A stretch of 64,000 nucleotides of DNA. Origin: Oscillospiraceae bacterium (GTDB taxonomy: Bacteria > Bacillota > Clostridia > Oscillospirales > Oscillospiraceae). The stretch covers positions 1-64,000 of the forward strand of contig JAAWSV010000004.1 in the NCBI GenBank assembly GCA_022801715.1. Reading direction: 5' to 3'. Under the pieces are notes generated by a model, which ran no database searches, had not been told where the DNA came from, and saw only the letters and a list, made by a program, of their open reading frames with translations. A program made the translations under genes and the position numbers. Shown piece after piece: positions 20,066 through 35,289 of this stretch. The first letter of the stretch is position 1. Every line of letters begins with the position of its first letter.

Positions 20066-20120
20066 GACTTAGGAGCTAAGAATGGTGGTGCCGCCTACGG
20101 CGACACCACCATTCCTAATC
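20061..20120. repeat. Hairpin element with AATTAGGA/TCCTAAT ends at the recG/DUF2812 junction
   Basis: AATTAGGA (20061-20068) and TCCTAAT (20113-20119) flank a stem made of AATGGTGGTG and CACCACCATT (20081-20113). The element carries the stop codons of both convergent genes. AATTAGGA-type ends recur at 42.1 and 44.8 kb. Confidence 0.6.
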
Positions 20121-21516
20121 TGCTCGCCACCGTCCTCATCTCCCCCTTCGAAACCTCCCAATCAAAGTAGATCTCCACAATCCGCCCCTCATAGCACAGC
20201 AGGTACCGCCCCTGCGGCCCATCGTCCTCCCGCATCAGCCGGTAGGCCTCCTTCGCCTGCCACGGCGCCGGGTCGATGGCCTGATACTGCTCCCGATACC
20301 CCTCCGGGACGCCCACATCGCGGGTGACCTCATCCCGCTCCCGCAGCATGGCATCCCGGCAGAGGTCGTACAGCGCCGGCACCTTCACCGTTGCCACGCT
20401 GTAGCTCAAATAGGGCATCTCCTGGGAATCCGCCGCGTCCAGCCGGGATTTCTGCACCGCCTCCATCCACCCGGCCAGAGGCGACTCCTCCGCCTGCAGC
20501 CGATAGCTGTACCCCTCGTACTCCACCCCCAGCAGCTCCTCCACCGTCAGCGGCAGCTCGTCGTTGTAGGCCGTGAAGGTGAGCCCTTTGTACTCATAGC
20601 TCTCCTCCCGCCCCTCCGACAGCCACCCCTGCTTGGCGGCCCACCGTATACCGGCGGCCTCCCCGCCGATCAGCAGGACGACCAGAAAGAAGGAGAGGAT
20701 CAGTGTAATTCCCAAATTGGCGCCTCTGGACACCTTTCGCCGCTTGAGGGCATTTCGCACCAGATGGACTATGGCCACCACCAAGAAATACCCCAGTATC
20801 ATAATCGCCAGTACTGCCGCCCTCAGCGGCGGCCCGTCTTGAAACAGATCCACCATGTAGAACACCATCGACGCCAGCACCGCCGTCAGCGCCACGCATT
20901 GGAACCAGTGGTTGCTGCGCCGGGTCAAAAATACCCCCTGCTCCGCCGCCTTTACCGCCCGGCGGTGCCACAGATAATACCCGCTTATATCCGCCGTACA
21001 CAGCGCGATGACACACAGCCAGCAAAACCCGCTGAACAGGGTGGTGCTCTTGGCCAGCGTCTCCGCCATGTGGTTCTTCACATCTCCCCAGAGCACTCCC
21101 CCATTGAGCAGTGCCACCGCCAGCAGGGCGATGCTGGAGCGCAGCACATTCCCCCTGGACCGGTGAATGGTGTCCACCATCACCACCGGATCCGTCTCGA
21201 TGGGCACCGGATTCTCCCGCTGGTTGTAAAAAATCTGCATCTGCGCCGACGACGCCGCGATCTCCCACCCGGTGTGCTCACAGAAGTCGTAGAAGGTGCT
21301 CTGTCCCTCGCTGGGCTCCGGATCGAACACCGACGCCCCCGGGTAGTAGGTCACACAGAACGTCAGCTTCTTGGGCTCAATCCGCCGGTAGACCCAGCTC
21401 CAGCTCCCAAACTTCTCCAGCAGCCACCCCCGCTCCGCCATCCGGCTCAGGCGCTTTTCGATCCCCTTCTGGTCAAAAAACGAGTAGAACTCAAACCGCC
21501 GCATTCTCTCCTTCAT
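20095..21516 (-). CDS. DUF2812 domain membrane protein
   Basis: A 473-residue protein. Residues 1-110 match the DUF2812 start (FYSFFDQKGIEKRLSRMAERGWLLEKFG) that is typical of proteins encoded with PadR regulators in Firmicutes. About six hydrophobic helices follow, then a soluble C-terminal domain from about 300. The ATG at 21516 overlaps the padR stop codon. The function is unknown; PadR pairs of this type often respond to membrane-active compounds (inference). The last codons and stop lie inside the AATTAGGA-ended hairpin element. Confidence 0.85.
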   Translation of the reverse strand: MKERMRRFEFYSFFDQKGIEKRLSRMAERGWLLEKFGSWSWVYRRIEPKKLTFCVTYYPGASVFDPEPSEGQSTFYDFCEHTGWEIAASSAQMQIFYNQRENPVPIETDPVVMVDTIHRSRGNVLRSSIALLAVALLNGGVLWGDVKNHMAETLAKSTTLFSGFCWLCVIALCTADISGYYLWHRRAVKAAEQGVFLTRRSNHWFQCVALTAVLASMVFYMVDLFQDGPPLRAAVLAIMILGYFLVVAIVHLVRNALKRRKVSRGANLGITLILSFFLVVLLIGGEAAGIRWAAKQGWLSEGREESYEYKGLTFTAYNDELPLTVEELLGVEYEGYSYRLQAEESPLAGWMEAVQKSRLDAADSQEMPYLSYSVATVKVPALYDLCRDAMLRERDEVTRDVGVPEGYREQYQAIDPAPWQAKEAYRLMREDDGPQGRYLLCYEGRIVEIYFDWEVSKGEMRTVASRLGMVVSP

Positions 21517-21836
21517 CTCTGCTCCTCCTCCCCCATCATCCGCCGATAGTCCTCCGCCTGGGCACAGATCCGCCGGTACTCCTTCTCCAGCGTCTCCTCC
21601 CCGCTCTTGGTCAGGATATAGCTGCGCCGCCGCCCCTCCACCTTGGTCTCCCGGATCATCCCCGCCTGACGGAACTCCTCCAGCAGATTGTAAAGGGTCC
21701 CCGACCCCACCGTCACCCGCCCCTCTGTCATCGCGGGCACCCGATCCAAAATATCCATCCCATAGCACTCCTCTCTGAGACAGAGCAAAATATAAAACAT
21801 CTGCTCCGTCAGCGTCCGAAACTTCAGCCTCGGCAT
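21513..21836 (-). CDS. PadR family transcriptional regulator
   Basis: A 107-residue winged-helix regulator: LTEQMFYILLCLREECYGMDILDRV and the PadR signature VGSGTLYNLLEEFRQAGMI, followed by a basic wing (EGRRRSYILT) and a dimerisation helix. It is coupled to the DUF2812 gene by an ATGA overlap. Two identical palindromes, one exactly in the promoter spacer, point to autorepression. Confidence 0.93.
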   Translation of the reverse strand: MPRLKFRTLTEQMFYILLCLREECYGMDILDRVPAMTEGRVTVGSGTLYNLLEEFRQAGMIRETKVEGRRRSYILTKSGEETLEKEYRRICAQAEDYRRMMGEEEQR

Positions 21837-21852
21837 CGCCCCACCCCCTATT

Positions 21853-21907
21853 CTCGATATTCGAGCATCCTCACCCCCAGTATAACCTCGATAATCGAGA
21901 ATGTCAA
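21853..21907 (-). promoter_or_regulatory. PadR promoter with two palindromic operators
   Basis: On the minus strand TTGACA (21907-21902), 17 bp, TATACT (21884-21879). CTCGATTATCGAG (21899-21887) fills the spacer, and CTCGAATATCGAG (21865-21853) lies just downstream of the start site; the two centres are 34 bp apart. Confidence 0.75.
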
Positions 21908-22060
21908 CCCCCAACCCAAAAAATCCCCCCACACAGGCACCTCCTTTGGTTTCCCACACCCTCCGCCAAACCCGCCATACCCTGTAGAGGTGCACACTGT
22001 GCGCCCGCCCACCCCCGCCACACCACCCCTCCAACTTCCCACGTCCCCCGCCCAAAAAAC

Positions 22061-22245: not shown

Positions 22246-22276
22246 CAGTCTGAAAAGGCCCCGCCTTTTCAGACTG
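22246..22276 (-). terminator. Hairpin overlapping the last stop codon of the phage-like operon
   Basis: CAGTCTGAAAAGGC and GCCTTTTCAGACTG form a 14-bp perfect stem with a CCC loop. The stop codon of the 22269 gene is within its first arm. No T run follows, so it may stabilise the mRNA end. Confidence 0.5.
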
Positions 22277-22835
22277 ATAGCTCAAAACTATACCAGGTAT
22301 GCTCCGCCCGCTCCACCATCTCCCAGGTAAACCCCTGCGCCTCACACTCCGCCCAGGTAATATACCGGAAATAGAACTCCGTCTCCAGATGACAGGGGAT
22401 CAGATCCAGGATCACGTCCCGAATCTGCTCAAACCCCTCGGGAATCCCGGACACATCGGGGAAAATCACCCGGATATGCCCATACTCCCCCGTCTCCTGC
22501 GCCAGCGCCCAGATGCCGCAGCCCCGGATTGCCCGGTTGATCCCCGCCAGCGTGAAGCTGTCCCCGCTGACCTGGAGCAGCGCGGCGATGGCCTCCCGAC
22601 GCCGCTTCACCCCGTAGTCCGCCGGCCGGTGGGCGAAGAGGTCCTCCCGCAGCCTTAGCCCCTCTGCCTCCGCCGTGGACAGGATCACCTCCCGCTCCGC
22701 CCGCTCCACCGCGGCGCCGCAGCCGTCCAGGGCCGCCCCCGCCGCCGACAGCTCGCCGCCGCTGAGGGATCCCTCCGACAGGTCATAGACCCCCAGGGGC
22801 TCCAGCAGCTCCTTCAGATACCCGCCGTACCCCAT
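22269..22835 (-). CDS. DUF2313 / XkdU-like phage tail protein
   Basis: A 188-residue protein of the YmfQ/XkdU family, which sits next to baseplate protein J in contractile phages. The start GYGGYLKELLEPLGVYDL and the central RREAIAALLQVSGDSFTLAGINRAI are typical. It is the last gene of the block: no tail fibre, holin or lysin follows, only hairpins. It starts four bases after the J gene ends. Confidence 0.85.
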   Translation of the reverse strand: MGYGGYLKELLEPLGVYDLSEGSLSGGELSAAGAALDGCGAAVERAEREVILSTAEAEGLRLREDLFAHRPADYGVKRRREAIAALLQVSGDSFTLAGINRAIRGCGIWALAQETGEYGHIRVIFPDVSGIPEGFEQIRDVILDLIPCHLETEFYFRYITWAECEAQGFTWEMVERAEHTWYSFELSV

Positions 22836-22838
22836 ACG

Positions 22839-23891
22839 CTAAACCTCCCCGATGGTCAGCGACTGGAGGGTGGGCAGCTCCCCCACCGCCGCCGGCACGT
22901 CCGCCGCCGGTGTGATGATCTGATAGTTGGCCACGCTGGGCAGCTGATAGAGCAGGTTCCCCAGCTCCGCCCGCAGGACGCCCTGTCCCAGCAGCCGGCC
23001 GGTGAAGTATCCCCGCAGCGCCGTGTCCGCCGCCGCCGCGGCCTCCTCATGGGTGTAGCCCTTGGCCGGCTTCAGCGCCACTTGGAGGGCCACCGGACGC
23101 AGCTTGGGGGCCTTTACCTGCAAGTCCACCGCGATCTCCCGCTTCTCCTGCAAGTAGGCCTGGATCTCCGCCAGCAGCGGTGCCTCCGGGGCGCCGGCCA
23201 CGGTGGCCACATACACATCCACCGTCCCGATCCCCCTGGCCCGGCCCACCGCCGTGGCCGCCGCCACCGCCGGGAACCCCATGGCCTCCTGCTCATAGAA
23301 GGCGGCGTTGGCCCCGTTGGGGAGCCGGCGGTAGCTGTTCAGGATTCTCTCCCGCAGCGACGCGTCGCCCTCCTCCTCCGCCCCGCCGGCGAAGGGCTCC
23401 GGGTTTCCGCACCGGGTGATCCCCGCCGGGGGCACCGCCATCACCGTGATCACCCCCGGGCCGATATTCCCCGCCGACCCCGTCTCCATGGCCTGCGCGG
23501 ACACGTCCACGTGGCTTTTCCCCGCCGGCAGTACCGCCGCCTCCTGCGTGGCAAAGCGGAGGCCCCCCGCCGTCATACACACCGTTCCCGCCGGGATGGC
23601 CAAATCCTGTCCCACCGGGGCGGAGACAAAGAAGCGCACCGCCCCCTTGGCCGCCGTGGCGGCGCTGCGGACGATTCCCCGCACCTCCCCGTGGTAGTCC
23701 AAATACACCCCCGACGCCGTCTGGGGGAAGCTCTGCGCCATCACCCAGTCCGCCTGCGCGTAGAGCGCCTGCACCTGCGCGGCCATGGCGTACAGCCGCA
23801 CCGGCAGGTCGCAGGCGTCGGCGGGGAGATAGCCGGCGCGCTGGGAAAACACCTGCATCATCTCCTGATAAATTGCCTCAATATCCCGCAT
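22839..23891 (-). CDS. Baseplate J family protein (XkdT-like)
   Basis: A 350-residue wedge protein of the contractile-tail baseplate (P2 gpJ/XkdT family). The family signatures QSFPQTASGVYLDYHGEVRGIVR near residue 50 and GTVDVYVATVAGAPEAPLLAEIQAYLQEKREI near 220 are present. GAGGAGG precedes the ATG at 23891. Confidence 0.92.
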   Translation of the reverse strand: MRDIEAIYQEMMQVFSQRAGYLPADACDLPVRLYAMAAQVQALYAQADWVMAQSFPQTASGVYLDYHGEVRGIVRSAATAAKGAVRFFVSAPVGQDLAIPAGTVCMTAGGLRFATQEAAVLPAGKSHVDVSAQAMETGSAGNIGPGVITVMAVPPAGITRCGNPEPFAGGAEEEGDASLRERILNSYRRLPNGANAAFYEQEAMGFPAVAAATAVGRARGIGTVDVYVATVAGAPEAPLLAEIQAYLQEKREIAVDLQVKAPKLRPVALQVALKPAKGYTHEEAAAAADTALRGYFTGRLLGQGVLRAELGNLLYQLPSVANYQIITPAADVPAAVGELPTLQSLTIGEV

Positions 23892-23900
23892 GGTACCTCC

Positions 23901-24245
23901 TCACACCGTCAAGCGCAGGGACAGCCGCTCCCCCTCGCCGCTCAGCTGTACCTCCACCGCCACCCGGCCGCCGCCGGCGTCGGAGAGGGTCACGTCCTCC
24001 ACGCTGACCGCCTCCCCCCGCAGGGCCTCGGCCACGTACTGCCGGGCCGCCGACAGCCGACTGCACCGGGGCTCACTGCCCAACCGGTAGAGCTCGCTAC
24101 CTATCTCCGGCAGCATCGGGAAGCTCCCCCGCCGGGCACACAGGCGGAAGAGTACCCGCTGCAAAAGCGCCTCCGCCCCCTCCGAGCGCACCAGACCTCC
24201 TCTGCCGTCGGGCACATAGTCCCCATCTCGAAGCCAAAGCTCCAT
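23901..24245 (-). CDS. Baseplate gp25/gpW-like protein (XkdS/DUF2634)
   Basis: A 114-residue protein. MELWLRDGDYVPDGRGGLVRSEGAEALLQRVLFRLCARRGSFPMLPEIG follows the gp25-like pattern for the sheath-nucleating baseplate subunit. The ATG at 24245 has GAGGAG seven bases upstream; longer starts are not supported. Confidence 0.82.
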   Translation of the reverse strand: MELWLRDGDYVPDGRGGLVRSEGAEALLQRVLFRLCARRGSFPMLPEIGSELYRLGSEPRCSRLSAARQYVAEALRGEAVSVEDVTLSDAGGGRVAVEVQLSGEGERLSLRLTV

Positions 24246-24259
24246 CGCGCATCTCCTCC

Positions 24260-24655
24260 TCATCCCATTCCGCACAGGCAGGGCACATAGAGACTGCCGT
24301 TGACCATCAGCCGCCCATAGATCTCCACCGTCCCGTCGTTGCGCAGCGTAAGGGAGGCCCCGCCGCTGTAGAGGCGCAGCTCCCCCGGCTCCAGCTCATC
24401 TGTCTCCCGGCGGGCCAGAGCGCCGGCGATGCACTGCTCCTCCCGGCCGCTGCCGCCCTTGATCACCAGCACCGTGTCCCCGGCCTTGGGCGTCCAGACC
24501 AGTCCCCCCGGCCCGTATACCGGCAGGGAGCGGTCCTCCCCACGGGTCAGCACTGCCGCCTCGCCGCCGCCGATGGTGGTCACGCCCACCTCCGCCTCGG
24601 CGCTCTCCTCCCGGGCCAGCTGCGCCGCCCCGGCCATTCGCTCTCCCATCCACAT
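24260..24655 (-). CDS. Phage spike/baseplate V-like protein (XkdR/DUF2577 position)
   Basis: A 131-residue protein with an OB-like middle (YGPGGLVWTPKAGDTVLVIKGG) and a beta-rich end (LYSGGASLTLRNDGTVEIYGRLMVNGSLYVP) that fits a short trimeric spike. The N-terminal 25 residues are helical. Three in-frame ATGs lie within 20 codons, so the start (24655) is uncertain. Position and fold pattern support the call. Confidence 0.7.
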   Translation of the reverse strand: MWMGERMAGAAQLAREESAEAEVGVTTIGGGEAAVLTRGEDRSLPVYGPGGLVWTPKAGDTVLVIKGGSGREEQCIAGALARRETDELEPGELRLYSGGASLTLRNDGTVEIYGRLMVNGSLYVPCLCGMG

Positions 24656-24656
24656 C

Positions 24657-25595
24657 TCAGTCTATAGCCTCCATCACCACGGTGGTCAGCGTCCCCGCCG
24701 GGCCGCCCCGGCTCTCCGCCTCCACCACGTCATACGCTCCCATAAGCCCCAGCGGCGGGTAGCGCAGGTCCGCTATGTCCCCCGGCTGGGCCTGGAAGGC
24801 CCCCGGCAGGGTGAGCTCCACCTGCCGCGCCAGCGCACGGGACTTCTGAATCTGGTACGCGCCGGTGTAGCGCATGGCCTCCCCGGAGCTCCTGCGGGGC
24901 ATGTACAGCACCTGCCGCCGGCAGCCGCCCCGGCGGAGGAAGTCCTCGTGGCGCACCGTCTCCGTCCGCCCCCCGCTCTTGTCCTTCACCAGCACCTCCG
25001 ACAGTACGCCATACCGCCGCTCCCGCACCGTACAGCCCGCCACCGAGGCCGCCTCCACCGACAGACGCCGCCCGCTCCCCTTCAGGGGGGAGGCCCGCAG
25101 GACCCCCAGGGCCGTCATGTGGGGCGTAAAGCCCCCCGCCAGCTCCGTAAAGCCGCTGACGGCCCGCCACTGGCTGCTGCCGCTGTTCACCCGATAGACC
25201 CCGCTCCCCGTCAGCTCCCGCCTCTTCTCATAGGGGACATAGGGTCCCGCGTGCCGCCGCAGGATCTCCGACAGCGTGGCCTGCTGATAGCTCTCCGCCT
25301 CCGCCTCGTTGTCTATGAGCAGCGCCGCCATCCCCCGCCCGCTGAGGCGGAGCAGCACCCCCTCCTTTGTGACCTCCGCGGCGTACTCGTCCACCACCCC
25401 CCGAAGCACCGCCTCTGTCCCCTCATAGGCGGCGAACCGGTGGCACAGGGGCAGGATTGCCCCCAGCTTCCCATCGTAGAGGCACACCGCCTCCATCTCG
25501 TCGCAGGGCACGCCGCCGGTACGCAGGATACGCCACCGGAGGGTCACCGGCAGCTCAAACTGCCGACCGTCCACCGTCAAGAGCCGCACTGTCAT
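24657..25595 (-). CDS. XkdQ-like tail hub protein
   Basis: A 312-residue protein in the place of XkdQ/gpD, the central hub that joins tube to spike. The pattern LTVDGRQFELPVTLRWRILRTGGVPCDEMEAVCLYDG, the YQQATLSEILRRHAGPY segment and the VELTLPGAFQAQPGDIADLR end are family-like. The ATG overlaps the stop of the LysM gene (ATGA). Confidence 0.82.
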   Translation of the reverse strand: MTVRLLTVDGRQFELPVTLRWRILRTGGVPCDEMEAVCLYDGKLGAILPLCHRFAAYEGTEAVLRGVVDEYAAEVTKEGVLLRLSGRGMAALLIDNEAEAESYQQATLSEILRRHAGPYVPYEKRRELTGSGVYRVNSGSSQWRAVSGFTELAGGFTPHMTALGVLRASPLKGSGRRLSVEAASVAGCTVRERRYGVLSEVLVKDKSGGRTETVRHEDFLRRGGCRRQVLYMPRRSSGEAMRYTGAYQIQKSRALARQVELTLPGAFQAQPGDIADLRYPPLGLMGAYDVVEAESRGGPAGTLTTVVMEAID

Positions 25596-26149
25596 ACCGG
25601 CACCACCACCTGCTGTCCCACCCGGATCAGGTTGGGGTTCTTGATGGCCGGATTGGCCCGCAGCAGCGCCTCTATGGTCACACCGTACCGCCCGGCCACC
25701 CCCCACAGGGTGTCCCCCTGGGCCACGGTGTACACCGTCCGCCGCTGCTCCGCCGCGGCGATCCCCTGGGCCACCTCCTTCAGCCCCTCCCGGATACCGG
25801 GAAAGTCCTCCACAAAGGCAAAGCGGTAGCGCACATAGTCCGGCAGCGGCTCCTCCGCCAGCGACAGCTCCGTGAAGTAGGCGCTGGCCGTCTGCCACAC
25901 CGGATGGACCAGAATCCCCGGCCCGTCCTGATAGAACAGGGAGGCCAGCCGCTTGAACTCGTCGTAGGCCCCCTCCCCGGCGAACTCCCCCTCCCCACGG
26001 AGCACCCGGCGCCCCAGCCCTAAATCCTGCACGCAGTAGCGCCCAAAGGGGATCTTGTGCACCACCACCTGCCGCTCAAAGGCGATGGTATAGGTCCTCG
26101 GATTGTGGGGAAAGGTATAGCTCTTATACCGCATCGGCTCCAAACGCAT
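25592..26149 (-). CDS. LysM-containing tail protein (XkdP-like)
   Basis: A 185-residue protein. The first 135 residues are a tail-associated domain; the C-terminal 48 residues form a LysM repeat (YTVAQGDTLWGVAGRYGVTIEALLRANPAIKNPNLIRVGQQVVVP) that binds peptidoglycan or helps baseplate assembly. AGGAGGGGG precedes the ATG at 26149. In PBSX this gene follows the tape measure; here it follows a 216-residue low-complexity protein. Confidence 0.85.
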   Translation of the reverse strand: MRLEPMRYKSYTFPHNPRTYTIAFERQVVVHKIPFGRYCVQDLGLGRRVLRGEGEFAGEGAYDEFKRLASLFYQDGPGILVHPVWQTASAYFTELSLAEEPLPDYVRYRFAFVEDFPGIREGLKEVAQGIAAAEQRRTVYTVAQGDTLWGVAGRYGVTIEALLRANPAIKNPNLIRVGQQVVVPV

Positions 26150-26163
26150 GGAACCCCCTCCTC

Positions 26164-26814
26164 TCAATACAGCGTAAACCCGCCGTCATACCGCCGGCTG
26201 TCCCGCTCCCAGCGATCCGACAGCGCCTTGGGCGACAGACCTGCCCCCCGCTCCGCCGACTCCTTCTCCGGCCCCGCCGGCCGCTCCACCGGCCCCGCCG
26301 CCGACCCGCTCTCCCACTCCGCCGGCCCCTTCTCCGCCGGCAAAGTCCGCTCCGCCGCCGGCAGGGTCCGCTCCACCGCGTAGGAGGCCGGCTCCGGAGC
26401 CGACAGACGCCGCCCCGCCATCCCGCTCCCCCGACGCACCGGCGCCTCCTCCGCCCCCCGGAGCCCCCGCTCCGGCGAAACGCCCCCCTGCGCCGAAAAC
26501 CCGGGCTCCACCGGGGAGGGGCCCTCCGCCCCCTCCCCCGACTGCCTCCCTGCCCGGCGGGAATACGGTCCCCGAGGCCCCGACGCCGTACCATCCTCCG
26601 GCTCATCCTCCGCCCGGGACAGAGGCTCCCGCGCCCCCGTCTCCTCCGCCCGGGACAGCCGACGGAACGCCGCCTCCTGAAACCCCCCATTTTCCGCCGC
26701 GACGGGCGCCCGGCCCTCCGCCCCCGTCAGGGCCTCCGCCGCCGCCGACAGCAGCGTGCGCACGGTCTCCTGGGGTACGCGCAGGGCAATCTCGATCATC
26801 TCCCGCTCTCTCAT
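26164..26814 (-). CDS. Low-complexity 216-aa protein in the tape-measure position
   Basis: The N-terminal 55 residues form a probable helix pair (IEIALRVPQETVRTLLSAAAEAL and FQEAAFRRLSRAEE). About 130 residues rich in Pro, Glu, Arg, Ala, Gly and Ser follow, with tandem VERTLPAAERTLPAEKGPAE repeats, and then a conserved-looking end SPKALSDRWERDSRRYDGGF. The start overlaps the tube stop codon (ATGA). In PBSX-type clusters this slot holds a tail chaperone and a tape measure of many hundreds of residues. No transmembrane helix and no peptidase motif are visible. It could be a very short tape measure, a chaperone or something new. Confidence 0.65.
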   Translation of the reverse strand: MREREMIEIALRVPQETVRTLLSAAAEALTGAEGRAPVAAENGGFQEAAFRRLSRAEETGAREPLSRAEDEPEDGTASGPRGPYSRRAGRQSGEGAEGPSPVEPGFSAQGGVSPERGLRGAEEAPVRRGSGMAGRRLSAPEPASYAVERTLPAAERTLPAEKGPAEWESGSAAGPVERPAGPEKESAERGAGLSPKALSDRWERDSRRYDGGFTLY

Positions 26815-27203
26815 GCGCGCACTTCCATCCGCTTTCTGGCCAGCACGGACACCTTCTCCGCCACCATAGCCCCCAGCTTCCCCTCCTCGGCGATGGCGCT
26901 CCAGTTGCACCCGCTGTAGATCACCCGCCGGTCCGGCTTACAGATCACCAGCGAGAAGTCCCTCATCCCATAGAAGTCGATCCCGTCGCTGATGGCGTCA
27001 TCGGTGGCATAGAGCCGCGTCAGCTCCAGCACATACTGGCACTGCCCGCCGATGGTGGCCACCGGCTCCTCCTCCCCGAAGGCCTCGATCACCTGACTGG
27101 TCTTGGTGGTTTTGACGCTGTAGCTCTGCACCACCGCCACCTTTTTCCCCTCCAGCTCCAAATAGATGTCGCTGCTGGTGGGAAATCCCGTCACCTTTGC
27201 CAT
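26811..27203 (-). CDS. Phage tail tube protein (XkdM-like)
   Basis: A 130-residue protein with MAKVTGFPTSSDIYLELEGKKVAVVQSYSVKTTK, the normal start of clostridial tail-tube subunits, and a beta-rich body. It lies directly after the sheath gene as in PBSX. AGGAGGGCAGGT precedes the ATG. Confidence 0.87.
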   Translation of the reverse strand: MAKVTGFPTSSDIYLELEGKKVAVVQSYSVKTTKTSQVIEAFGEEEPVATIGGQCQYVLELTRLYATDDAISDGIDFYGMRDFSLVICKPDRRVIYSGCNWSAIAEEGKLGAMVAEKVSVLARKRMEVRA

Positions 27204-27243
27204 ACCTGCCCTCCTCTGTCCCTGTTCTCCGCCCCTGTGGGGC

Positions 27244-28302
27244 TCACACTGTGATGTGGGCCGTCAGATAGATCTGATTCAGCCCGTGGGCCACGGCGAA
27301 GCTGAACTCCACCACGCACACCGAGGGGTCCGCCGCGTCCACTGACACCGACACGTCGCCGTAGCCGTCGATGATCTCCGCCACCAGCTTGCTCTCCAGC
27401 TCCACAATCACCTGCGAGCGGATGGCCCCTCTGGTCTGGGCGGTGTTCTTCTTCCGGGCGAAGCGGCTGCGCAGGGCGGCGCGCACCGTGGGGATCACGT
27501 CATCCACAATCAAGATCGTGCTCAGCTCCCGCCAGGTGCTGTCCGCTGTCCCCCCGGTCTTGGTTCTGGTGGTGATCCCCCGCACTGCCGACACCGCGCC
27601 GCCCACGCCCTCTATGGGCGTCACGCCGCCCCGGACCAGCAGGTCGATGTCGCTGTCGCCGTAGCGCTCCGCCGTGCCGCCCAGACCCCGGAGCACCGCC
27701 CCGTTGATGGGCGCCGCCGGGTCGCCGCTGGCGGCGATGACCCCGGCAAGGGCCGCCGCGGCCAGCATCCCCGGCAGGCGGCTGCCGTCCTCCGAGAGCA
27801 CGTCGCCTCCCACCAGCACCATGCGCTCGCTGTTCAGCGCCCCGGCCCGCTGGATGAGCTGGGCCGCCGTCTCGGCGGCGCTGCCCACCACGCCGATGCG
27901 CTCCCGGCGGGCGGCGCTGGCCTCCTCTAAACTGACCCGCAGCAGCTGCTGGACCGGCAGCTCGCCGCTGTCGCAGGTGACCACCTGCACGTCCTCCTCC
28001 AGGCTCAGCGCGTCGAAGGCATCGCCGTAGTGGTCGGCGTCGGCGGCGCGCACCGCCTTCACCACGCCGGCCCCGTTGGCGAAGAGGAGGCGGAGCATGG
28101 CCTCCATCCCCTTGGTCTCCCCGTCGCTGCCGAAGGCGGTCAGCCCCGCCTCCAGGCTGGTGATGGTCACCACCTGTCCGCTCTCCCCCTTGCCGGACAG
28201 GGCCGCCAGCCCCACCACCTTGCCCCCGCCGAACCTCTGCACCACCGAGGAGGCGTCATAGGAGGAATAGACCCCCGGCCGCTCATGTACTATTGCGCTC
28301 AA
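27244..28302 (-). CDS. Contractile tail sheath protein (XkdK-like)
   Basis: A 352-residue sheath subunit. The N-terminal HERPGVYSSYDASSVV is the sheath signature. The C-terminal third (TWRELSTILIVDDVIPTVRAALRSRFARKKNT, then a SVSVDAADPSVCVVEFSFAVAHGLNQIYLTAHITV end) matches the conserved sheath core. It is shorter than most phage sheaths (about 350 instead of 430-480), like compact XkdK forms. It overlaps the previous gene by 20 bases. Confidence 0.92.
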   Translation of the reverse strand: MSAIVHERPGVYSSYDASSVVQRFGGGKVVGLAALSGKGESGQVVTITSLEAGLTAFGSDGETKGMEAMLRLLFANGAGVVKAVRAADADHYGDAFDALSLEEDVQVVTCDSGELPVQQLLRVSLEEASAARRERIGVVGSAAETAAQLIQRAGALNSERMVLVGGDVLSEDGSRLPGMLAAAALAGVIAASGDPAAPINGAVLRGLGGTAERYGDSDIDLLVRGGVTPIEGVGGAVSAVRGITTRTKTGGTADSTWRELSTILIVDDVIPTVRAALRSRFARKKNTAQTRGAIRSQVIVELESKLVAEIIDGYGDVSVSVDAADPSVCVVEFSFAVAHGLNQIYLTAHITV

Positions 28303-28804
28303 TCCAAGGCACTCCTTTCAATCTGAAATCCAGCAGCAGTCCCGTCTCCGCCTCCACCGACGCCACAAAGAACGCGCCGCACTGGAGGGAGCCCCGCTGC
28401 AAAAACATTCCGCTGTCTATGTCGAAGCGGGCCTCGCCCCAGTCCATCCGCCCCGGCCGCAGTCCCGCCGCGGGGGAGGCGGTCAGGGCGTCGTGGGCCG
28501 CCTCCAGGGCCGCGAGGCACCCGGCGGCGCCGGCCTCCCGGGGGGCGTAGGCGTCCAGCGCCAGCGTGAGCTCCGCCTGCCGCCCATAGATCTCCCGATC
28601 CGTCCCGGCCTCCTGATCCCACGCCGCGCCCAAATAGCTGCCCAGCCCCGCCGAGGTGCTGGCAAAGCCCCGCACCCCCACGGCCACCACCGCCCCCTGA
28701 TACCGTCCGGCCCACTCCCGGCTGTAGGCGGCCTCCGCCTGCACCCCTTGGGCGCGCAGGCGATTTAGCACCGCCTGACGCACCAGCTCCACACCGCTTG
28801 TCAT
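28283..28804 (-). CDS. Phage neck/tail terminator-like protein
   Basis: A 173-residue protein located directly before the sheath, where PBSX has XkdJ-like and tail-terminator genes. LVRQAVLNRLRAQGVQAEAAYSREWAGRYQGAVVAVGVRG is followed by a beta-rich body. The call rests on position and general fold; a specific family was not recognised. Start and stop overlap both neighbours. Confidence 0.6.
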   Translation of the reverse strand: MTSGVELVRQAVLNRLRAQGVQAEAAYSREWAGRYQGAVVAVGVRGFASTSAGLGSYLGAAWDQEAGTDREIYGRQAELTLALDAYAPREAGAAGCLAALEAAHDALTASPAAGLRPGRMDWGEARFDIDSGMFLQRGSLQCGAFFVASVEAETGLLLDFRLKGVPWIERNST

Positions 28805-29121
28805 ACCACCGTCTCCCTCTCCCGTACCAGCACCGCCCGGCAGTAGAGGGGCGCGTCCCCGAAGGGCACCAGCACGCTCTCCCGCACCCGATAGGCCTGT
28901 CCCTCCCAGAGGAGCCGATCCTCCCGGTCCACCTCCCGGTCCGCCGGTCCGATATAGAGCCACCGCCGCTGGTCCACGTCCCCCAGCGCCGTGCTCCTCC
29001 GCTCCTCCTGCGAGGCCTGGCCCCTCACCGGCTGCACAAAGGCCCGCCAGCTCTTCCCGCTCTCCGGGCAGCTCACCCGCTGCCCATAGGTGCCGAGAAT
29101 CCCGGCAAACAGCTCTCTCAT
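28801..29121 (-). CDS. Phage head-tail joining protein
   Basis: A 106-residue protein (RELFAGILGTYGQRV ... RRWLYIGPADREVDREDRLLWEGQAYRVRESVLVPFGD) in the position of head-closure proteins. The central WLYIGP..., WEGQAYRV motif is common in such connectors. Coupled by ATGA overlaps on both sides. Confidence 0.65.
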   Translation of the reverse strand: MRELFAGILGTYGQRVSCPESGKSWRAFVQPVRGQASQEERRSTALGDVDQRRWLYIGPADREVDREDRLLWEGQAYRVRESVLVPFGDAPLYCRAVLVRERETVV

Positions 29122-29504
29122 CCCCGCACCCCCAGAAAGGCGAAGCCCTCGCCATCGCTGCGGTAAGGGGCCATCATCCGCTCCGCTTGGCGCCGCAGAC
29201 GCTCCCCGGCGCTGTCGCTCCCGCCGCCGCCGGTGCCGCCGCTGCCGGTGGTCACGGAGACCTCCCCCACGCTGAATTTCTCCACACTCCCGCCGGCACT
29301 CTGACCGCAGCGGCTGTCTATCAGCCCCGCCGCCCCGAGGAAGGCGGCGGCGCAGAGGAGGGCCTCCCGGCACTCCTCCCGCCCCTCCCCCGCCTGCCGC
29401 GTGAGCCGGCGCTCCGCCTCCCGGCACAGCAGGCGCAGCAGCGCCTCCTCCTTTTCCTCCGGCCTGACCAGCCCCGCCGCCAGCCGATAGATCTCCTCCG
29501 TCAT
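29118..29504 (-). CDS. Phage head-tail connector-like protein (gp6 type)
   Basis: A 128-residue helical protein (EEIYRLAAGLVRPEEKEEALLRLLCREAERRLTR), placed immediately after the capsid gene as gp6/XkdH-type connectors are. A glycine-serine linker near residue 85 precedes a short helical end. The exact family is inferred from order. Confidence 0.65.
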   Translation of the reverse strand: MTEEIYRLAAGLVRPEEKEEALLRLLCREAERRLTRQAGEGREECREALLCAAAFLGAAGLIDSRCGQSAGGSVEKFSVGEVSVTTGSGGTGGGGSDSAGERLRRQAERMMAPYRSDGEGFAFLGVRG

Positions 29505-29526
29505 CCGTCGCCCTCCTCTGTTTTTG

Positions 29527-30558
29527 TTACACCTTCAGTACCTTGGACGCCCCCTGGTAGAGCTTGGCGAACCCGGAGATACTGGTGATGGACGCCCGCT
29601 CCAGCTGGCGGTCGATGAGCCTGTCCGCCTCCACCATCACCTGTCCCCCGGTGACCATCTCCAGGGCATACCGTCTGTCCAAGCCCACCAGCGTTCCCGC
29701 CGGCATGGCGGCGGTGCGCAGGAGCTTGGCCCCCAGGGGCGTGGTCAGCGTGCCGGTGCCCTGAAAGTTCAGCCCCGTCAGGGGGTTTTGCAGCTCCGGC
29801 AGCTTCAGAAGCTGGAGCATCACATCCCCCGGCACCAGCATGGTGTTCATGCAGTAGGGGTCAAACTGGGCCCAGAACTCCAGCAGGGCCCCATAGCTCA
29901 GCTCCCCCGCCTGCCCGGAGATGGGGTCGCTTCCCACCTGAAAGCTGTCGGCGGCGTTGCTGTTGCCGTCCCCCTTGAGCACCACCTCGATGGCGTCCTC
30001 CATGTGCATCCGGGCGATGTGCCCGCCAATCTGGCGCAATGTCACCGCGAACAGGTCCAGCCGCTGGAAGCGCACCGCCTCATAGGAGGCCACCAGCATC
30101 CGCCCCCGCTTGTGGAGGCGCACCAGATTCTTCTGGGTCTTGATGGCGGTCTGGGGCAGCTGCGCCCCCTCCTCCACCCGGCAGAGGCTCTTGTCGTCCT
30201 CTGAGGGCACAGAGGTGATGGTGCGGTAGTCCATCCCCTCAAACACCGTCTCCGTGGCGGTGATGTCCTTCAGGATGCTGTTCTCCTCCATCCCCTGCCG
30301 GACCACCCGGGACACGAACTCGGGGAAGAGCACCGCCGCTTGGGCGCAGTGGAAGAACTTCTCCACCCTGTCGCTTTTCGGCCCCTTCACGTGGATATCG
30401 AAGCGCTTCAGCTGGCGCTGGAAGGCGTCCAGCCCCTCCATCGCGGTGCCCCGATACCCCTCGCTGGGGTCCAGGCTCTCCAGCACCTCGGTAAAGCTCC
30501 GCCCGCTCTCCTGGTGCATCCCCTTCTCCAGCCTCACCTTGTTGAATCTGTAGTCCAT
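29527..30558 (-). CDS. Phage major capsid protein (HK97-like)
   Basis: A 343-residue capsid subunit. An N-terminal arm of about 70 residues precedes the HK97-type core: FPEFVSRVVRQGMEENSILKDITATETVFEGMDYRTI, and near the end LVGLDRRYALEMVTGGQVMVEADRLIDRQLERASITSISGFAKLY. The ATG at 30558 is better spaced from GGGGAGG than the ATG six bases earlier. Confidence 0.85.
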   Translation of the reverse strand: MDYRFNKVRLEKGMHQESGRSFTEVLESLDPSEGYRGTAMEGLDAFQRQLKRFDIHVKGPKSDRVEKFFHCAQAAVLFPEFVSRVVRQGMEENSILKDITATETVFEGMDYRTITSVPSEDDKSLCRVEEGAQLPQTAIKTQKNLVRLHKRGRMLVASYEAVRFQRLDLFAVTLRQIGGHIARMHMEDAIEVVLKGDGNSNAADSFQVGSDPISGQAGELSYGALLEFWAQFDPYCMNTMLVPGDVMLQLLKLPELQNPLTGLNFQGTGTLTTPLGAKLLRTAAMPAGTLVGLDRRYALEMVTGGQVMVEADRLIDRQLERASITSISGFAKLYQGASKVLKV

Positions 30559-30577
30559 CCTCATACCTCCCCTTTCC

Positions 30578-30922
30578 TCAAAGCAGAATGGTCACCGTTT
30601 GACGGCCCTCATCCCGGTCCACCACCCAGCGGCTCACGCCGCCCGCCGTCTCACCGGCGCTCTGTACGCCGCCCAGCCCATCGGCGGCGAGGGCGGTGTA
30701 CCCCAGCGCCGGCGCCGCGCCGCTGTAGCCCACGGTGACAAAGCCGCCCATCTGCACCGTACAGGCGTCCCCCCCGGCATACACCGCCGCCCCGCAGAAG
30801 GGCTCACCGGCGGCGCACTCCGCCACACAGCCGCCGCCGTCCACCTTCACCACATGTCCCTCGGTGACGCCCCCGAAAAACGTAGCGCACCACTGCCCGA
30901 TCCCCTCAAAAGAAACCTTCAT
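30578..30922 (-). CDS. Capsid decoration-like protein
   Basis: A 114-residue glycine and alanine-rich beta protein (GHVVKVDGGGCVAECAAGEPFCGAAVYAGGDACTVQMGGFVTVGY) resembling DUF2190/decoration proteins found between protease and capsid genes. Five cysteines are notable. The ATG at 30922 follows GGGAGG; the longer frame is not supported. Confidence 0.65.
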   Translation of the reverse strand: MKVSFEGIGQWCATFFGGVTEGHVVKVDGGGCVAECAAGEPFCGAAVYAGGDACTVQMGGFVTVGYSGAAPALGYTALAADGLGGVQSAGETAGGVSRWVVDRDEGRQTVTILL

Positions 30923-30978
30923 AAGAAACCTCCCATCCAAATCTATCACCGCCCCGCCGGCCCCCGGCGGGAAACAGC

Positions 30979-31896
30979 CTACACCATAAACGCGCTGCCG
31001 CTCTCCTCCTGGGACCGCCCCCGCAGCTGCGCGCCCACCGGTCCCTCCGTCCGCCTGCGATAGACCCTGCGCAGCTCCAGCAGCTCCGCCTCCTCCAGAC
31101 GCTCCGCGATGGCGGCAAAGATTTTGCCGTCCAAATCCTCATCCGCCAGCGCCGCCAGACGCGTCACCTCCTGCCGGAGTCCCTGGAGATAGCCCCGCCC
31201 CAGCGCCGCCTCCTGTTCCAGCTGCCGCAGCTCCTCCCGGAGGCTCTCCTCCCCGGATCGCTCCACCAGCGCCTTCAGCGTGGCGCCCTTCTGCATACTC
31301 TTGCGCACCACCCCCGCCGACCGCTGGGCGGGCACCGCCACAAAGGACCACTCATAGGCGTCCCGGGCCTCCCGGAGCGTCAGGAAGCACAGCCGGCTGC
31401 CGTACATATGCCCGGGCACGTGGGCGCACTGCTCCTTCCCGCAGACGGAGCAGACCCGCTTTCCCACGCTGCACCCCACGCTGACCTCCTTCTTGATGCC
31501 CCCCTCGATCTCCCGGATCAGCTCCGCATTGCCCTCGGTGCGGAGCATGTAGGCGTAGGCCTTCAGCCAGCAGTAGGTGTCCCCCGCGGCGGTGAGGCGC
31601 CCCTCCTCCCGGATCACCTCCGTGCGGTAGACCCGGGCGCTCTGCCCCTTGGTGGACCACTGGTGGTCAAAGATGCCGCTGCGGCCCACAAACAGGGGCC
31701 CCAGCTCCCTCAGACACCCCTCATCAAAGCGCTCAAAGTCCCGGTCCACCTCGTTGTCGCACAGGCGCAGGGCAAAGGTGTAGACCTCCCCCGCCCTCAG
31801 GGGCTTCTGGGACAGGCGGTTGATCTCCGCCAGTTCCCCCTCGCTGACCACCGACGCCGCGCCGCTGGCCAAATTCTTTCTGATCTCCATGGTCAT
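30979..31896 (-). CDS. Prohead protease/scaffold-like protein (XkdF-like)
   Basis: A 305-residue protein coupled to the portal gene (ATGA). Residues 1-200 resemble prohead proteases: FVGRSGIFDHQWSTKGQSARVYRTEV gives the candidate catalytic histidine, and EIEGGIKKEVSVGCSVGK the candidate serine. A CSVC...CAH cluster near 160 may bind zinc. The last 100 residues form a charged coiled coil that could act as a scaffold. Family order supports this; catalysis is inferred. Confidence 0.72.
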   Translation of the reverse strand: MTMEIRKNLASGAASVVSEGELAEINRLSQKPLRAGEVYTFALRLCDNEVDRDFERFDEGCLRELGPLFVGRSGIFDHQWSTKGQSARVYRTEVIREEGRLTAAGDTYCWLKAYAYMLRTEGNAELIREIEGGIKKEVSVGCSVGKRVCSVCGKEQCAHVPGHMYGSRLCFLTLREARDAYEWSFVAVPAQRSAGVVRKSMQKGATLKALVERSGEESLREELRQLEQEAALGRGYLQGLRQEVTRLAALADEDLDGKIFAAIAERLEEAELLELRRVYRRRTEGPVGAQLRGRSQEESGSAFMV

Positions 31897-33053
31897 TCCT
31901 CTCCTCTCTCCGCTCTTTCGCAGCTCTGGGCGATCTGTCTGGCCTGCTGGCGGTACCAGGCCGCCTTGGCCTCCTCCACCTGATCCTGCAAATTGATGTC
32001 GTCCCAGACCACCGTAAAGCCGCCGTACCACCCGTGGAGCCGGAGCCACAGCCGGCAGATCCGCTCCACCACCGGCGTCAGCCCCCGCCGGATGGCCGTC
32101 AGCTCCGAGGTCAGGATGTCCGCCTGCTGGGCGCTCATCCGCTCGGTGGAGGACCAGCTGAGGCCCAGCATAAAGGGCGGGATGCCCGTCTTGGCCACCA
32201 GCTGCTCTAAGATCTGGCGCACTGGCACCTCGCTGTCTAAAATCTGGTTGTCCGCCCCGATGACCTTGATCTCCACGTCCCCGATGGCCACAAAGTCCCG
32301 GACGCTGCCGTCCCGGCCGCTCTCCATGGCCCGGCTCCACTCCTCGGCGATCTGCCGGCTGCGCTGGGCGCAGACCGCCGGCTCCAGCTCCCCATTCTGG
32401 GGCTTGTAGACCACCGCGAAGCGCACATTCCCCATCCGCTCCCAGTTCTCCCCCATGGCGGTGTAGATTTTCCCCAGCAGCTCCGCCAAAAAGGGCATTC
32501 CCCGCAGCATGGACACCCCATAGGGCTGGTCCGCCTCGGGATTGTAGGGGGTGAACAGCAGCAGCTCCTGCCGGGGCAGAGGTTCCATTTTCCCGTCCTT
32601 CCCCGGCCCGCAGATCGTGAACGCCAGCGCCGAGGCCCCCTGCTGTATCTCGATGTCCTCCACCCTGCCGCAGAGCAGCGCGGCGATGTCCTGACGCTCC
32701 CCATCCAGCACCATCTCCCCCACCGCCTGCCCGAAGGTCAGCATGGAGTCGAGGTACATGTCCAAAAAGGCGTTGAGGCCCACCTGTCCATGGCCCACTG
32801 GCACCTCTCTGAGGAAGCGCCCCAGCGCCGCCTCTGCCTCCGGCTCCTCACAGACCACCCTCACCCCGCCGGCCAGCCTGATGATCTTGCCCACCGCGGC
32901 ATCCACCGCCGGCACGGCGGCCCGCACCGCCCGATACAGCGGCCCCTGCGCCCCCAAGCGCACCGCCGAGAGCATTCCCCACTCCGCCCCCGGCCGCCGG
33001 AGCTGGGAGCAGGCCGCCCCCGCCGCCGGCTCTTTCTTCCGCCAAATCCTCAT
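31893..33053 (-). CDS. Phage portal protein
   Basis: A 386-residue portal subunit (XkdE/HK97-like). The recognisable core is FLDMYLDSMLTFGQAVGEMVLDG, the AFTPYNPEADQPYGVSMLRGMPFLAELLGKIY wing, the AKTGIPPFMLGLSWSSTERMSAQQADILTSELTAIRRGLTPVVERI helix, and a final basic helix. It lies 58 bp after the terminase. Confidence 0.9.
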   Translation of the reverse strand: MRIWRKKEPAAGAACSQLRRPGAEWGMLSAVRLGAQGPLYRAVRAAVPAVDAAVGKIIRLAGGVRVVCEEPEAEAALGRFLREVPVGHGQVGLNAFLDMYLDSMLTFGQAVGEMVLDGERQDIAALLCGRVEDIEIQQGASALAFTICGPGKDGKMEPLPRQELLLFTPYNPEADQPYGVSMLRGMPFLAELLGKIYTAMGENWERMGNVRFAVVYKPQNGELEPAVCAQRSRQIAEEWSRAMESGRDGSVRDFVAIGDVEIKVIGADNQILDSEVPVRQILEQLVAKTGIPPFMLGLSWSSTERMSAQQADILTSELTAIRRGLTPVVERICRLWLRLHGWYGGFTVVWDDINLQDQVEEAKAAWYRQQARQIAQSCERAERGEE

Positions 33054-33111
33054 AAAACCCCCCTCAATCTAAGAAATCCAAATCCCGCCGCCGAAGGCGG
33101 CCCCCAAACTC

Positions 33112-34359
33112 CTAACACCTGCCTCTTGCCACCGCCACGGCGCCCACGCCCGAGGCGCCCTCCTCCCGCCCCGCTATGGTGGCGGCGAAGTAGCGCATGT
33201 CGTCCATGGCGTGGTCGTTCTCCTTCCGGGGGGCCTCCCGGCCCCCCTCAGGGCTCTCCCAGCAGTAGCCCTCCAGCTCCCGGAGGCAGTCCTCGCAGCT
33301 CTCGCAGATCACCAGCCGCCCGCTCTTGAGGAGCCCCGCCGTCACTCGGATGCCCGAGAGGACGTCGTTTACCGCCCCCACCACGTGGAACCCCTCCCGC
33401 CGGAGGGCGGTGATGAAGCTGACGGCGGAGGGGTCCGCCACCACCTGCTCGATCCGCCGCCCGCCGGTTAGGTTTTTCAGCATCTCCACATACTCCTGAT
33501 CCGTCCGCTGCACCCCGGTCTCCCGGGAGGCGTAGTACACCTCCTCCACCCGGTACCAGGCGGTGCCGTACTTCCCCCAGAGCCCCATGGAACAGGGGTT
33601 GGCGGTGCCGTAGTCCACGCTGACGCACCACCGCTCCGCCGCCCCCTGTGGCTTGGGCCTGGCGTGGTCCTCCCGCCGGTAGAAGTCGTAGATCCGCCCC
33701 GCCGGCGCGGTCCACTCCCCCAGCACGAACCGCCGGTAGAAGGCCCCGGTGTAGCGCCGCTGGTACTGTTCCCGCGTGGCCGGGGACAGTACCGGATTGT
33801 CCTCCATGGTGAAGTGGAGGTAGAGCATCCGCCGCTCCGCGGCCTTCAGGATCCACTCCCGGTAGAACCAGTGCCCCGGCCCCTCCGGGTTGCAGCTGAA
33901 CCACAGCTTGGCCCCCTCCACGCTGCACCGGGCCAGCGTCTGCTCCACGAAGCTCCGGGGCATCAGCGCCGCCTCGTCCAGCAGCGCCCCGGCGAAGGTG
34001 GCCCCCTGGATCAGCGCCGCGCTGCCCTCGTCCTTGCCCCCCGCCAGACAGAACCGGTTCTCCCGCCCGCCGCTCCGGAGGACCAGCAGATTCTCCCCCC
34101 GCCGCTCCAAGACACCCATTCCCATCTGCCGCAGTACCGGCAGCACCTCCCAGAGCACATTCCGCCGGAGGGCCCCAATGGTCTTGCCGCACAGGACGAA
34201 GCACTGCCCGTCAAAGCTCCCCATGGCCCAGCAGAAGAAGCCGATGCCCATGCAGAGGGTCTTGCCGCTGCGCACCGCCCCGTCGCAGATGATTCCCTCA
34301 AGCTCCGGCCTCTCCCGCCACCAGAGCAGGGCCTGCCGCTGCTTGGGCGAGAACCTCAC
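33112..34359 (-). CDS. Terminase large subunit (PBSX family)
   Basis: A 415-residue DNA-packaging motor. Walker A GAVRSGKT near residue 28, Walker B GALLDEAALM near 125 with the catalytic acid, and the RNase H-like nuclease acids in SVDYGTANP, VVADPSAVSF and a terminal DDMRYF are all present, so both ATPase and nuclease look intact. Its presence implies DNA packaging, not just a tailocin. It overlaps the upstream gene by four bases. Confidence 0.92.
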   Translation of the reverse strand: MRFSPKQRQALLWWRERPELEGIICDGAVRSGKTLCMGIGFFCWAMGSFDGQCFVLCGKTIGALRRNVLWEVLPVLRQMGMGVLERRGENLLVLRSGGRENRFCLAGGKDEGSAALIQGATFAGALLDEAALMPRSFVEQTLARCSVEGAKLWFSCNPEGPGHWFYREWILKAAERRMLYLHFTMEDNPVLSPATREQYQRRYTGAFYRRFVLGEWTAPAGRIYDFYRREDHARPKPQGAAERWCVSVDYGTANPCSMGLWGKYGTAWYRVEEVYYASRETGVQRTDQEYVEMLKNLTGGRRIEQVVADPSAVSFITALRREGFHVVGAVNDVLSGIRVTAGLLKSGRLVICESCEDCLRELEGYCWESPEGGREAPRKENDHAMDDMRYFAATIAGREEGASGVGAVAVARGRC

Positions 34360-34658
34360 GCCTCCTCACCTCCGCTCACCGCGCTCAGGAAGGCCTCCAG
34401 CCCCCCGCCCTCCGCCTCCGGCTCCCCCTGGAGCCGGACCAGCAGCTCCAGCGCCTTCAGCCGGTCCAAAAACTTCATCTCCACCGTCCCGTTGGCGTAC
34501 CGCTTGAACTCCGAGATCCCCTCCAGGTGGCAGTTCTTCAAATCCGACGGCTCATCGGTAAAGGCGATCCGAATCCCATCGTTGGGCCGATAGAAGACCA
34601 GCTTCTCGAGGTACTGGATGATCTCCTCCCGGCTCTTGCATCGTCTCACTTGTCTCAT
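34356..34658 (-). CDS. Terminase small subunit-like protein
   Basis: A 100-residue protein starting MRQVRRCKSREEIIQYLEKLVFYRPNDGIRIAFTDEP, directly before the large terminase. The motif 'YLE.L.F.RPNDAIRLAF' recurs in clostridial phage-like clusters at this place. The GGAGGGG is only two bases from the ATG, so a TTG or GTG start 40-50 bases upstream is possible. Confidence 0.6.
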   Translation of the reverse strand: MRQVRRCKSREEIIQYLEKLVFYRPNDGIRIAFTDEPSDLKNCHLEGISEFKRYANGTVEMKFLDRLKALELLVRLQGEPEAEGGGLEAFLSAVSGGEEA

Positions 34659-34925
34659 CCCCTCCAAACACACCCGCCGCGCCCCCTGTTCTTGCACAGC
34701 GGCGTGCAACCCACCCCCTATTTTTTTGAAAAAAACCGGCAAAAAAGGGGAAAAAGCATCAAAAAAGCGGCCGCCCAAAGCAGCTGCCACCAAAAAAACG
34801 GTACAATTTCCCCCCAAAACCCGCCCCACACACTCCCCCCATCCCCCCATCAAACCCGCGAAAACCCCTTCCCTTCCCCGCCCCCCGCCTCACAGCCGCC
34901 GCCCACACCCTCAAACAAATCCCCC
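34659..34925 (-). other. G-rich leader upstream of the terminase genes
   Basis: No gene is seen. The minus strand has many runs of four to six G between 34800 and 34940 (for example GGGGGGATGGGGGG), able to form G-quadruplexes, and A/T-rich runs from 34726 to 34800. Transcription from the 35290 promoter would cross it. Confidence 0.5.
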
Positions 34926-35258
34926 TTATTTCCCCCCTATTTCATGCTTTTTCTCATAATTATCCAACCGAGCCGTCAAAATCCCTCTCCACTCCTCACT
35001 GGGACACCCTGCAATCATCCTCCGATACCCCGGCAAATCCGCATAACTCTCCACCAACCGCAAAAGCGTCCACTCCAAACCATAAGTCCCCCCCTCCGGA
35101 AAAACCCCCACCAAAGCCTCCGCCTCCTCATACGACAAGGGCGTCTCCACCTCCGACAACAGCTGGTCATACCGCTCCAAGGTCTCCTCCGTGGGATCAT
35201 CCCGCCGGGCGTCGGGCATCTGCCCCAAGGCCTTCAGCCGCTCCACACTTTTCTGCAT
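34926..35258 (-). CDS. Hypothetical protein heading the phage-like operon (110 aa)
   Basis: A soluble acidic and helical protein (SVERLKALGQMPDARRDDPTEETLERYDQLLSEVETPLSYEEAEALVGVFP). The ATG at 35258 follows AAGGAGG. It is the first frame after the host-type promoter and is separated from the terminase genes by 267 bp of G-rich DNA. It could be a regulator or packaging accessory, or a host gene unrelated to the particle; no family was recognised. Confidence 0.65.
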   Translation of the reverse strand: MQKSVERLKALGQMPDARRDDPTEETLERYDQLLSEVETPLSYEEAEALVGVFPEGGTYGLEWTLLRLVESYADLPGYRRMIAGCPSEEWRGILTARLDNYEKKHEIGGK

Positions 35259-35289
35259 CAAATCCGCCTCCTTTTATATAATTGACTAC

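Follow-up and report, generated by a model that had tools for sequence, protein, structure and literature searches.

The window, the whole 64,000-nucleotide stretch of Oscillospiraceae DNA that was analysed here, carries a run of packaging, head and contractile-tail genes, and the question raised by this locus is whether such genes still belong to a phage or have become the property of the host. The first-pass annotation had favoured a domesticated minimal particle, or an element resembling a gene-transfer agent (GTA), without a tape measure. Comparison with related genomes adds to this reading a fixed neighbourhood, vertical inheritance, purifying selection, single copy number and a GTA-type small terminase, but puts an extremely short slot protein where the tape measure had been thought absent. 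The block is thus probably a domesticated, vertically inherited GTA-like element, whose particles would package DNA and bear a very short contractile tail. No literature on it was found among open-licence papers.

Layout of the block

Eighteen open frames, all intact and all on the minus strand, run from the small terminase (TerS) to an XkdU-like protein and span positions 22269–34658. Their order is that of the PBSX (Xkd) genes, from terminase to XkdU-like protein and with the contractile tail set included, and Pfam and PHROGs profiles bear out the initial description of a compact minus-strand block in this order without a broken frame. Profile matches are firm for the large terminase (TerL), portal, capsid, sheath, LysM/DNA_circ_N protein, hub and baseplate J protein; those for the sheath initiator, the connector and the Mu gp48-like protein are weak, with the expected order kept.

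TerS (34356–34658) is followed by TerL (33112–34359; Pfam Terminase_6N, PHROG terminase large subunit), the portal protein (31893–33053; PHROG portal, E = 4e-151) and an XkdF-like head protein (30979–31890; phrog_16951), which lies between portal and capsid, may serve as prohead protease or scaffold, and is kept in all families, tail-less loci included. The remainder of the head comprises a decoration or structural protein (30578–30949; PHROG virion structural protein), the major capsid protein (29527–30564; PHROG major head protein, E = 4e-105; Pfam Phage_capsid_4), a head–tail connector (29118–29504; weak PHROG head–tail adaptor match, position and conservation) and a head-closure-like protein (28801–29121; position and conservation). 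A tail-completion protein in the XkdJ position (28283–28804; phrog_25177 and position) leads to the contractile sheath (27244–28302; Pfam Phage_sheath_1/1C; PHROG tail sheath, E = 3e-45) and the adjoining tail tube (26811–27203), whose AlphaFold model resembles phage tubes, Hcp and the tube of RcGTA, the match to tail tubes and Hcp being weak (best E = 8e-4, TM about 0.48). Beyond the tape-measure slot (26164–26814) lie a LysM/DNA_circ_N-like hub protein in the XkdP position (25592–26167; Pfam LysM, 1.5e-15; DNA_circ_N, 4e-7), an XkdQ/gpD-like baseplate hub (24657–25595; PHROG baseplate hub, 1e-22), a small baseplate protein placed at the spike (XkdR) by position (24260–24655; phrog_25991, function unknown), an XkdS-like sheath initiator or baseplate wedge (23901–24275; Pfam Sheath_initiator, 0.004; PHROG wedge subunit), the baseplate J-like protein XkdT (22839–23891; Pfam Baseplate_J, 1.7e-52) and, as the final gene, an XkdU/Mu gp48-like tail protein (22269–22835; PHROG tail, 5e-15; Pfam Phage_Mu_Gp48, 2e-4).

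Some details of the first description need adjustment. The block had been taken to reach 35261, but the frame at 34926–35261 has a partial match in the closest relative only and none in other relatives; judged from these comparisons, it lies outside the conserved block, which ends at TerS, at about 34658. That nearly all genes are joined by ATGA overlaps was overstated: about five junctions are 4-bp overlaps, and the others are either longer overlaps or gaps, the widest gap being 58 bp. The base composition called host-like is indeed within the range of the window (G+C 0.51–0.70), but at its top (0.67–0.70).

About 40 bp upstream of TerS, an inverted repeat (TTGCAC-N6-GTGCAA; 34692–34709, minus strand) is the only match to this pattern in the whole genome, and the genes behind it have the layout of a single transcription unit. 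The same dyad precedes TerS in 23 of 123 loci, against none in shuffled sequences, and variants do so in many relatives, some of these variants being altered in both arms in a matching way. An operator is one possible role of the dyad; another, given the T-run that accompanies it in many species, is a leader hairpin. A LexA-type SOS box was rejected: one occurs upstream of TerS in 1 of 123 loci, as expected by chance.

Packaging genes and the tape-measure slot

The TerS of the window, of about 100 aa, matches Pfam Terminase_2 weakly and in its C-terminal half only. Alignment with TerS proteins of other families, where some loci (L194 and L202) keep a full-length protein with an N-terminal helix-turn-helix region, shows this region as a truncated remnant in Oscillibacter-type loci and as entirely gone in the window and most relatives, where TerS has about 90–105 aa. 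The TerS of RcGTA has likewise lost its N-terminal DNA-binding domain, a loss proposed as a mark of GTA-type TerS proteins (PMC6854486). A search with the predicted TerS model found no structural match. In TerL, the residues of the Walker (ATPase) and nuclease motifs are invariant across 14 aligned relatives; a strict motif pattern flagged many loci, mostly at Walker B alone, and was taken to be too narrow there, so that intactness was judged from the invariant columns of this alignment. Because TerS has lost the domain for specific DNA binding, TerL would fill capsids with DNA without sequence choice.

The slot between the tube and the LysM protein is occupied in the window by a fast-evolving 216-aa protein (dN/dS about 0.64). 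The first-pass annotation had seen neither a tape measure nor a tail chaperone here. No long tape measure exists, in that the longest frame in this slot is 311 aa across 102 loci, other families included, which also disposes of a long one hidden in relatives; but the slot is not empty. Its protein has the XkdO position, varies in size among relatives (130–310 aa), has a variable, low-complexity middle and has a conserved C-terminal end, which in 86 of 103 loci reads RDxRRYDGGFxLY. As for the chaperone, many relatives have one: in Flavonifractor-type loci an XkdN-like protein precedes the slot protein, and in 26 loci it contains an A7 slippery site in constant phase with a −1 extension of 95–111 aa. 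This site and the conserved −1 frame show the signature of a classical tail-chaperone frameshift and of selection for tail assembly. The 216-aa protein has a chaperone-like motif, FDxxRFexL, in common with the relatives' chaperone, and appears to be a fusion of a chaperone C-terminal remnant with a mini tape-measure protein; in the genus of the window the chaperone would thus be reduced to this motif. Tape measures specify about 0.15 nm of tail per residue, and by this rule 216 aa would give a tail no longer than about 30 nm, possibly among the shortest of contractile tails.

Outside the family the tail shrinks further. In two loci of other families (L196 and L203), the sheath is gone and about 100 bp are left between head closure and LysM protein, sheath loss in these far families being read from HMM misses plus lack of room. 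In five others (L187–L191), nearly the whole tail is gone and TerS, TerL, portal, XkdF-like protein, capsid, connector and hub remain. Retention of packaging and head genes where tails shrink suggests that DNA packaging is the function being maintained. This also bears on whether the block encodes a killer particle, in which capsids would hold host DNA undelivered and the contractile tail would kill competitors, as with PBSX or a tailocin. The PBSX gene order and the conservation of sheath, tube and baseplate within the family speak for such a particle, as does the fact that PBSX packages host DNA yet does not deliver it (PMC12946183). We nevertheless consider it unlikely, since capsid and terminase rank near the top of the block genes in conservation and persist where sheath, tube or the whole tail has gone, no fast-evolving fibre adjoins the block in the window, and the tail would be very short.

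The preferred reading of a GTA-like particle extends to a broader one, for which the balance tips only slightly in favour: that a single ancient GTA-like lineage spans the Oscillospirales. In Oscillospiraceae its tail would be contractile and built on an extremely short tape measure; in other families first the sheath and then nearly the whole tail would have gone, the packaging and head genes being retained in all. Such a lineage would account for the GTA-like packaging seen in gut samples from this order and, if real, would be a contractile-tailed GTA. The loci also offer a natural series in which the tail is reduced and packaging stays constant. Head-only clusters (TerS with helix-turn-helix region, TerL, portal, XkdF-like protein and capsid) also occur amid housekeeping genes at L185:21602–27705 and L285:7053–13470; these are possibly separate GTA-like or remnant elements.

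Inheritance, selection and flanking genes

TerL was found in all ten other genomes searched from the genus of the window, and the capsid gene in 128 of the 300 family genomes that are at least 90% complete, distributed over 35 of 72 genera. Among the named carriers are Oscillibacter valericigenes, Oscillibacter sp. PC13, Flavonifractor and Pseudoflavonifractor isolates, and Dysosmobacter and Intestinimonas metagenome-assembled genomes (MAGs). The gene is single-copy in the 128 carriers, save one with a second, weak match, and its frames are open, a single stop codon having been seen in the whole set. About half of the sampled genera lack it, and losses are therefore frequent. Further afield it occurs in 63 of 297 order genomes, other families included, and in 8 of 293 class genomes, three of the eight lying outside the order, all with much weaker scores. 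Gene order and strand are kept in 84 of the 87 loci that have terminase to XkdU plus sheath. Among variant loci, L219 has the capsid and decoration genes before the portal, and in L212 and L221 the sheath is unrecognised.

The first-pass annotation had proposed to look for the same block at the same locus in relatives and to compute dN/dS for each gene, values near one being expected of decay. The neighbourhood is fixed: RidA lies just upstream, adjoining TerS, in the genus of the window, and several genera have recG next to the block, in some cases at its other end. Gene trees follow that of rpoB (Mantel r 0.84 for 29 genomes of three families; within the family 0.88, and 0.92 for the tail genes), the correlations for head and tail trees being reached in none of 2,000 permutations. 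Pairwise Nei–Gojobori dN/dS of the block is 0.15–0.24 in six species pairs, and each tested gene is below one, per-gene values being rough. Tree congruence, single copy number and the lack of an integrase among the matches listed are the marks of a domesticated, vertically transmitted GTA without selfish mobility genes alongside, and purifying selection on structural and packaging genes is a further one. By these comparisons the block is a vertically inherited, host-maintained and selected element. Conserved order and strand, congruence with rpoB and low dN/dS therefore exclude a recent or decaying prophage; decay specifically is ruled out by selection, trees and intact frames.

Lysis genes are where relatives and window differ. 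In other species of the genus, an M15 peptidase stands directly behind the last block gene, accompanied in two of them by an XhlA-like small protein; in other genera this place is taken by Phage_holin_4_1, a CHAP amidase or a CBM5/12 protein. The sole Phage_holin_4_1 of genomes G077 and G081, and the sole M15_4 peptidase of genomes G007 and G004, sit behind the block. The relatives' lysin was also looked for elsewhere in the genome of the window's species, and none was found. The initial statement that lysis genes are missing thus holds for the species of the window but not for its relatives. Distant lysis genes, which had been thought worth seeking in the rest of the genome, did not emerge either: neither M15_4 peptidase nor holin_4_1 was found in the draft genomes of this species (assembly 93% complete) and its nearest relative. 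The missing holin/lysin module and tail fibre, the frequent losses of the capsid gene and the lack of a structural match for TerS count against the GTA-like reading. At 20095–22055 of the window, PadR and DUF2812 membrane protein genes occupy the place of the lysin, an arrangement common to the nearest relative (L009). The reported absence of a tail fibre holds too, none having been found near the block in this species; in some relatives a CBM5/12 or fibre-like protein is encoded behind the block.

A temperate prophage has integrase, repressor and replication genes, and none was recognised with the block. As had been noted at the outset for the integrase, none occurs among the matches listed, whether on the contig of the window or, in seven relatives with complete or near-complete genomes, at a distance of up to about 25 kb from the block; no repressor or replication family stood out among the recurrent flank genes of 82 loci, which were screened by recurrence rather than exhaustively against Pfam. 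Since such genes were not recognised there and the block is vertically inherited, the adjacent holin and lysin read as a module for particle release rather than as part of an ordinary prophage. The sign of ordinary prophage decay named at the outset, a tape measure, lysin and integrase beside the block in other strains, was found in part: lysin and holin lie there in other species, but without a recognised integrase. That an ordinary prophage, recently active or decaying, is present is accordingly very improbable: the adjacent holin and lysin and the listing as provirus in IMG/VR are outweighed by the lack of mobility, replication and repressor genes just described, the fixed neighbourhood, the rpoB congruence, the low dN/dS and the absence of a long tape measure in 102 loci; moreover, viral contigs with the block's capsid are nearly all 3–20 kb long, that is, the block itself. 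A capsid-forming, PICI-like phage satellite that needs a helper phage would also have head and packaging genes without replication genes, but the block has its own full tail set, shows neither a regulator nor, among the matches listed, an integrase, and is a single vertical copy; we give this explanation hardly any weight. A host structure for other uses, such as one that stores or releases DNA or a contractile device that stays bound to the cell and has no part in gene exchange, is a slim prospect. Vertical inheritance and selection show only that the host benefits and not how; against these uses, the relatives' lysis module implies release from lysed cells, and the terminase is kept everywhere.

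Comparison with known systems and database records

On the reading as a GTA-like particle, the cell would make small capsids on very short contractile tails, host DNA would fill these capsids, part of the population would lyse and release the particles, and the DNA would reach recipients. Packaging and transfer of this kind are, judging from the genes, the likely function.

PBSX of Bacillus subtilis, which is contractile like the block, has the same order of terminase, portal, XkdF, capsid, connectors, sheath, tube, LysM protein, hub and XkdS/T/U. It is a larger element, equipped with fibres, lysis genes and regulators of its own, and where it has the long tape measure XkdO the block has the 216-aa slot protein. 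A tailocin is a tail without capsid and terminase, whereas capsid, portal and terminase are present and conserved here. With RcGTA and CcGTA of Alphaproteobacteria the block shares vertical inheritance across an order and purifying selection; these are, however, of an unrelated lineage and have a non-contractile, siphovirus-like tail.

GTA-like packaging has been detected in Oscillospiraceae (Onthomonas) and Ruminococcaceae by Borodovich et al. 2026 (PMC12946183). No operon was reported for the packaging in Onthomonas, and Faecalibacterium was the only searched MAG named with a strong GTA candidate (PMC12946183). This agent, FpGTA, is podovirus-like, with particles and about 9 kb of host DNA shown (PMC12946183). 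FpGTA and the block occur in the same bacterial order and are alike in a TerS without a clear DNA-binding domain and in having TerL, portal, head protein and capsid; lysis genes form a separate module in FpGTA and likewise in relatives of the block, and FpGTA is near-universal in its genus. By its published description, however, FpGTA has no visible tail and two separate operons, whereas in the block a single operon encodes sheath, tube and a full baseplate. The block's capsid model found no match in the genus 16S-matched to a Faecalibacterium probe (two genomes, the identity of the genus being uncertain). The block is the leading candidate for the GTA-like packaging in Oscillospiraceae, its link to Onthomonas being by family only. 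GTA-like packaging in this family, which is abundant in the gut, has so far had no known gene cluster; a concrete single-operon candidate in many species, several of them cultured, makes the question directly testable.

IMG/VR holds many "viral" contigs of 3–20 kb with the capsid of the block (L105–L184 and L275–L339), and two scans confirmed 282 and 452 capsid relatives. These contigs appear to be the host block excised as provirus, and hundreds of public "proviruses" are probably a host-owned block, misfiled. Two records obtained from human faecal samples, unverified and labelled "Bacteriophage sp.", look like host chromosome, and could be contamination or packaged host DNA: MT835769 (L186) has the block a few kb from recG, and MT835508 (L185) has a head-only relative amid housekeeping genes that include those for ribosomal proteins.
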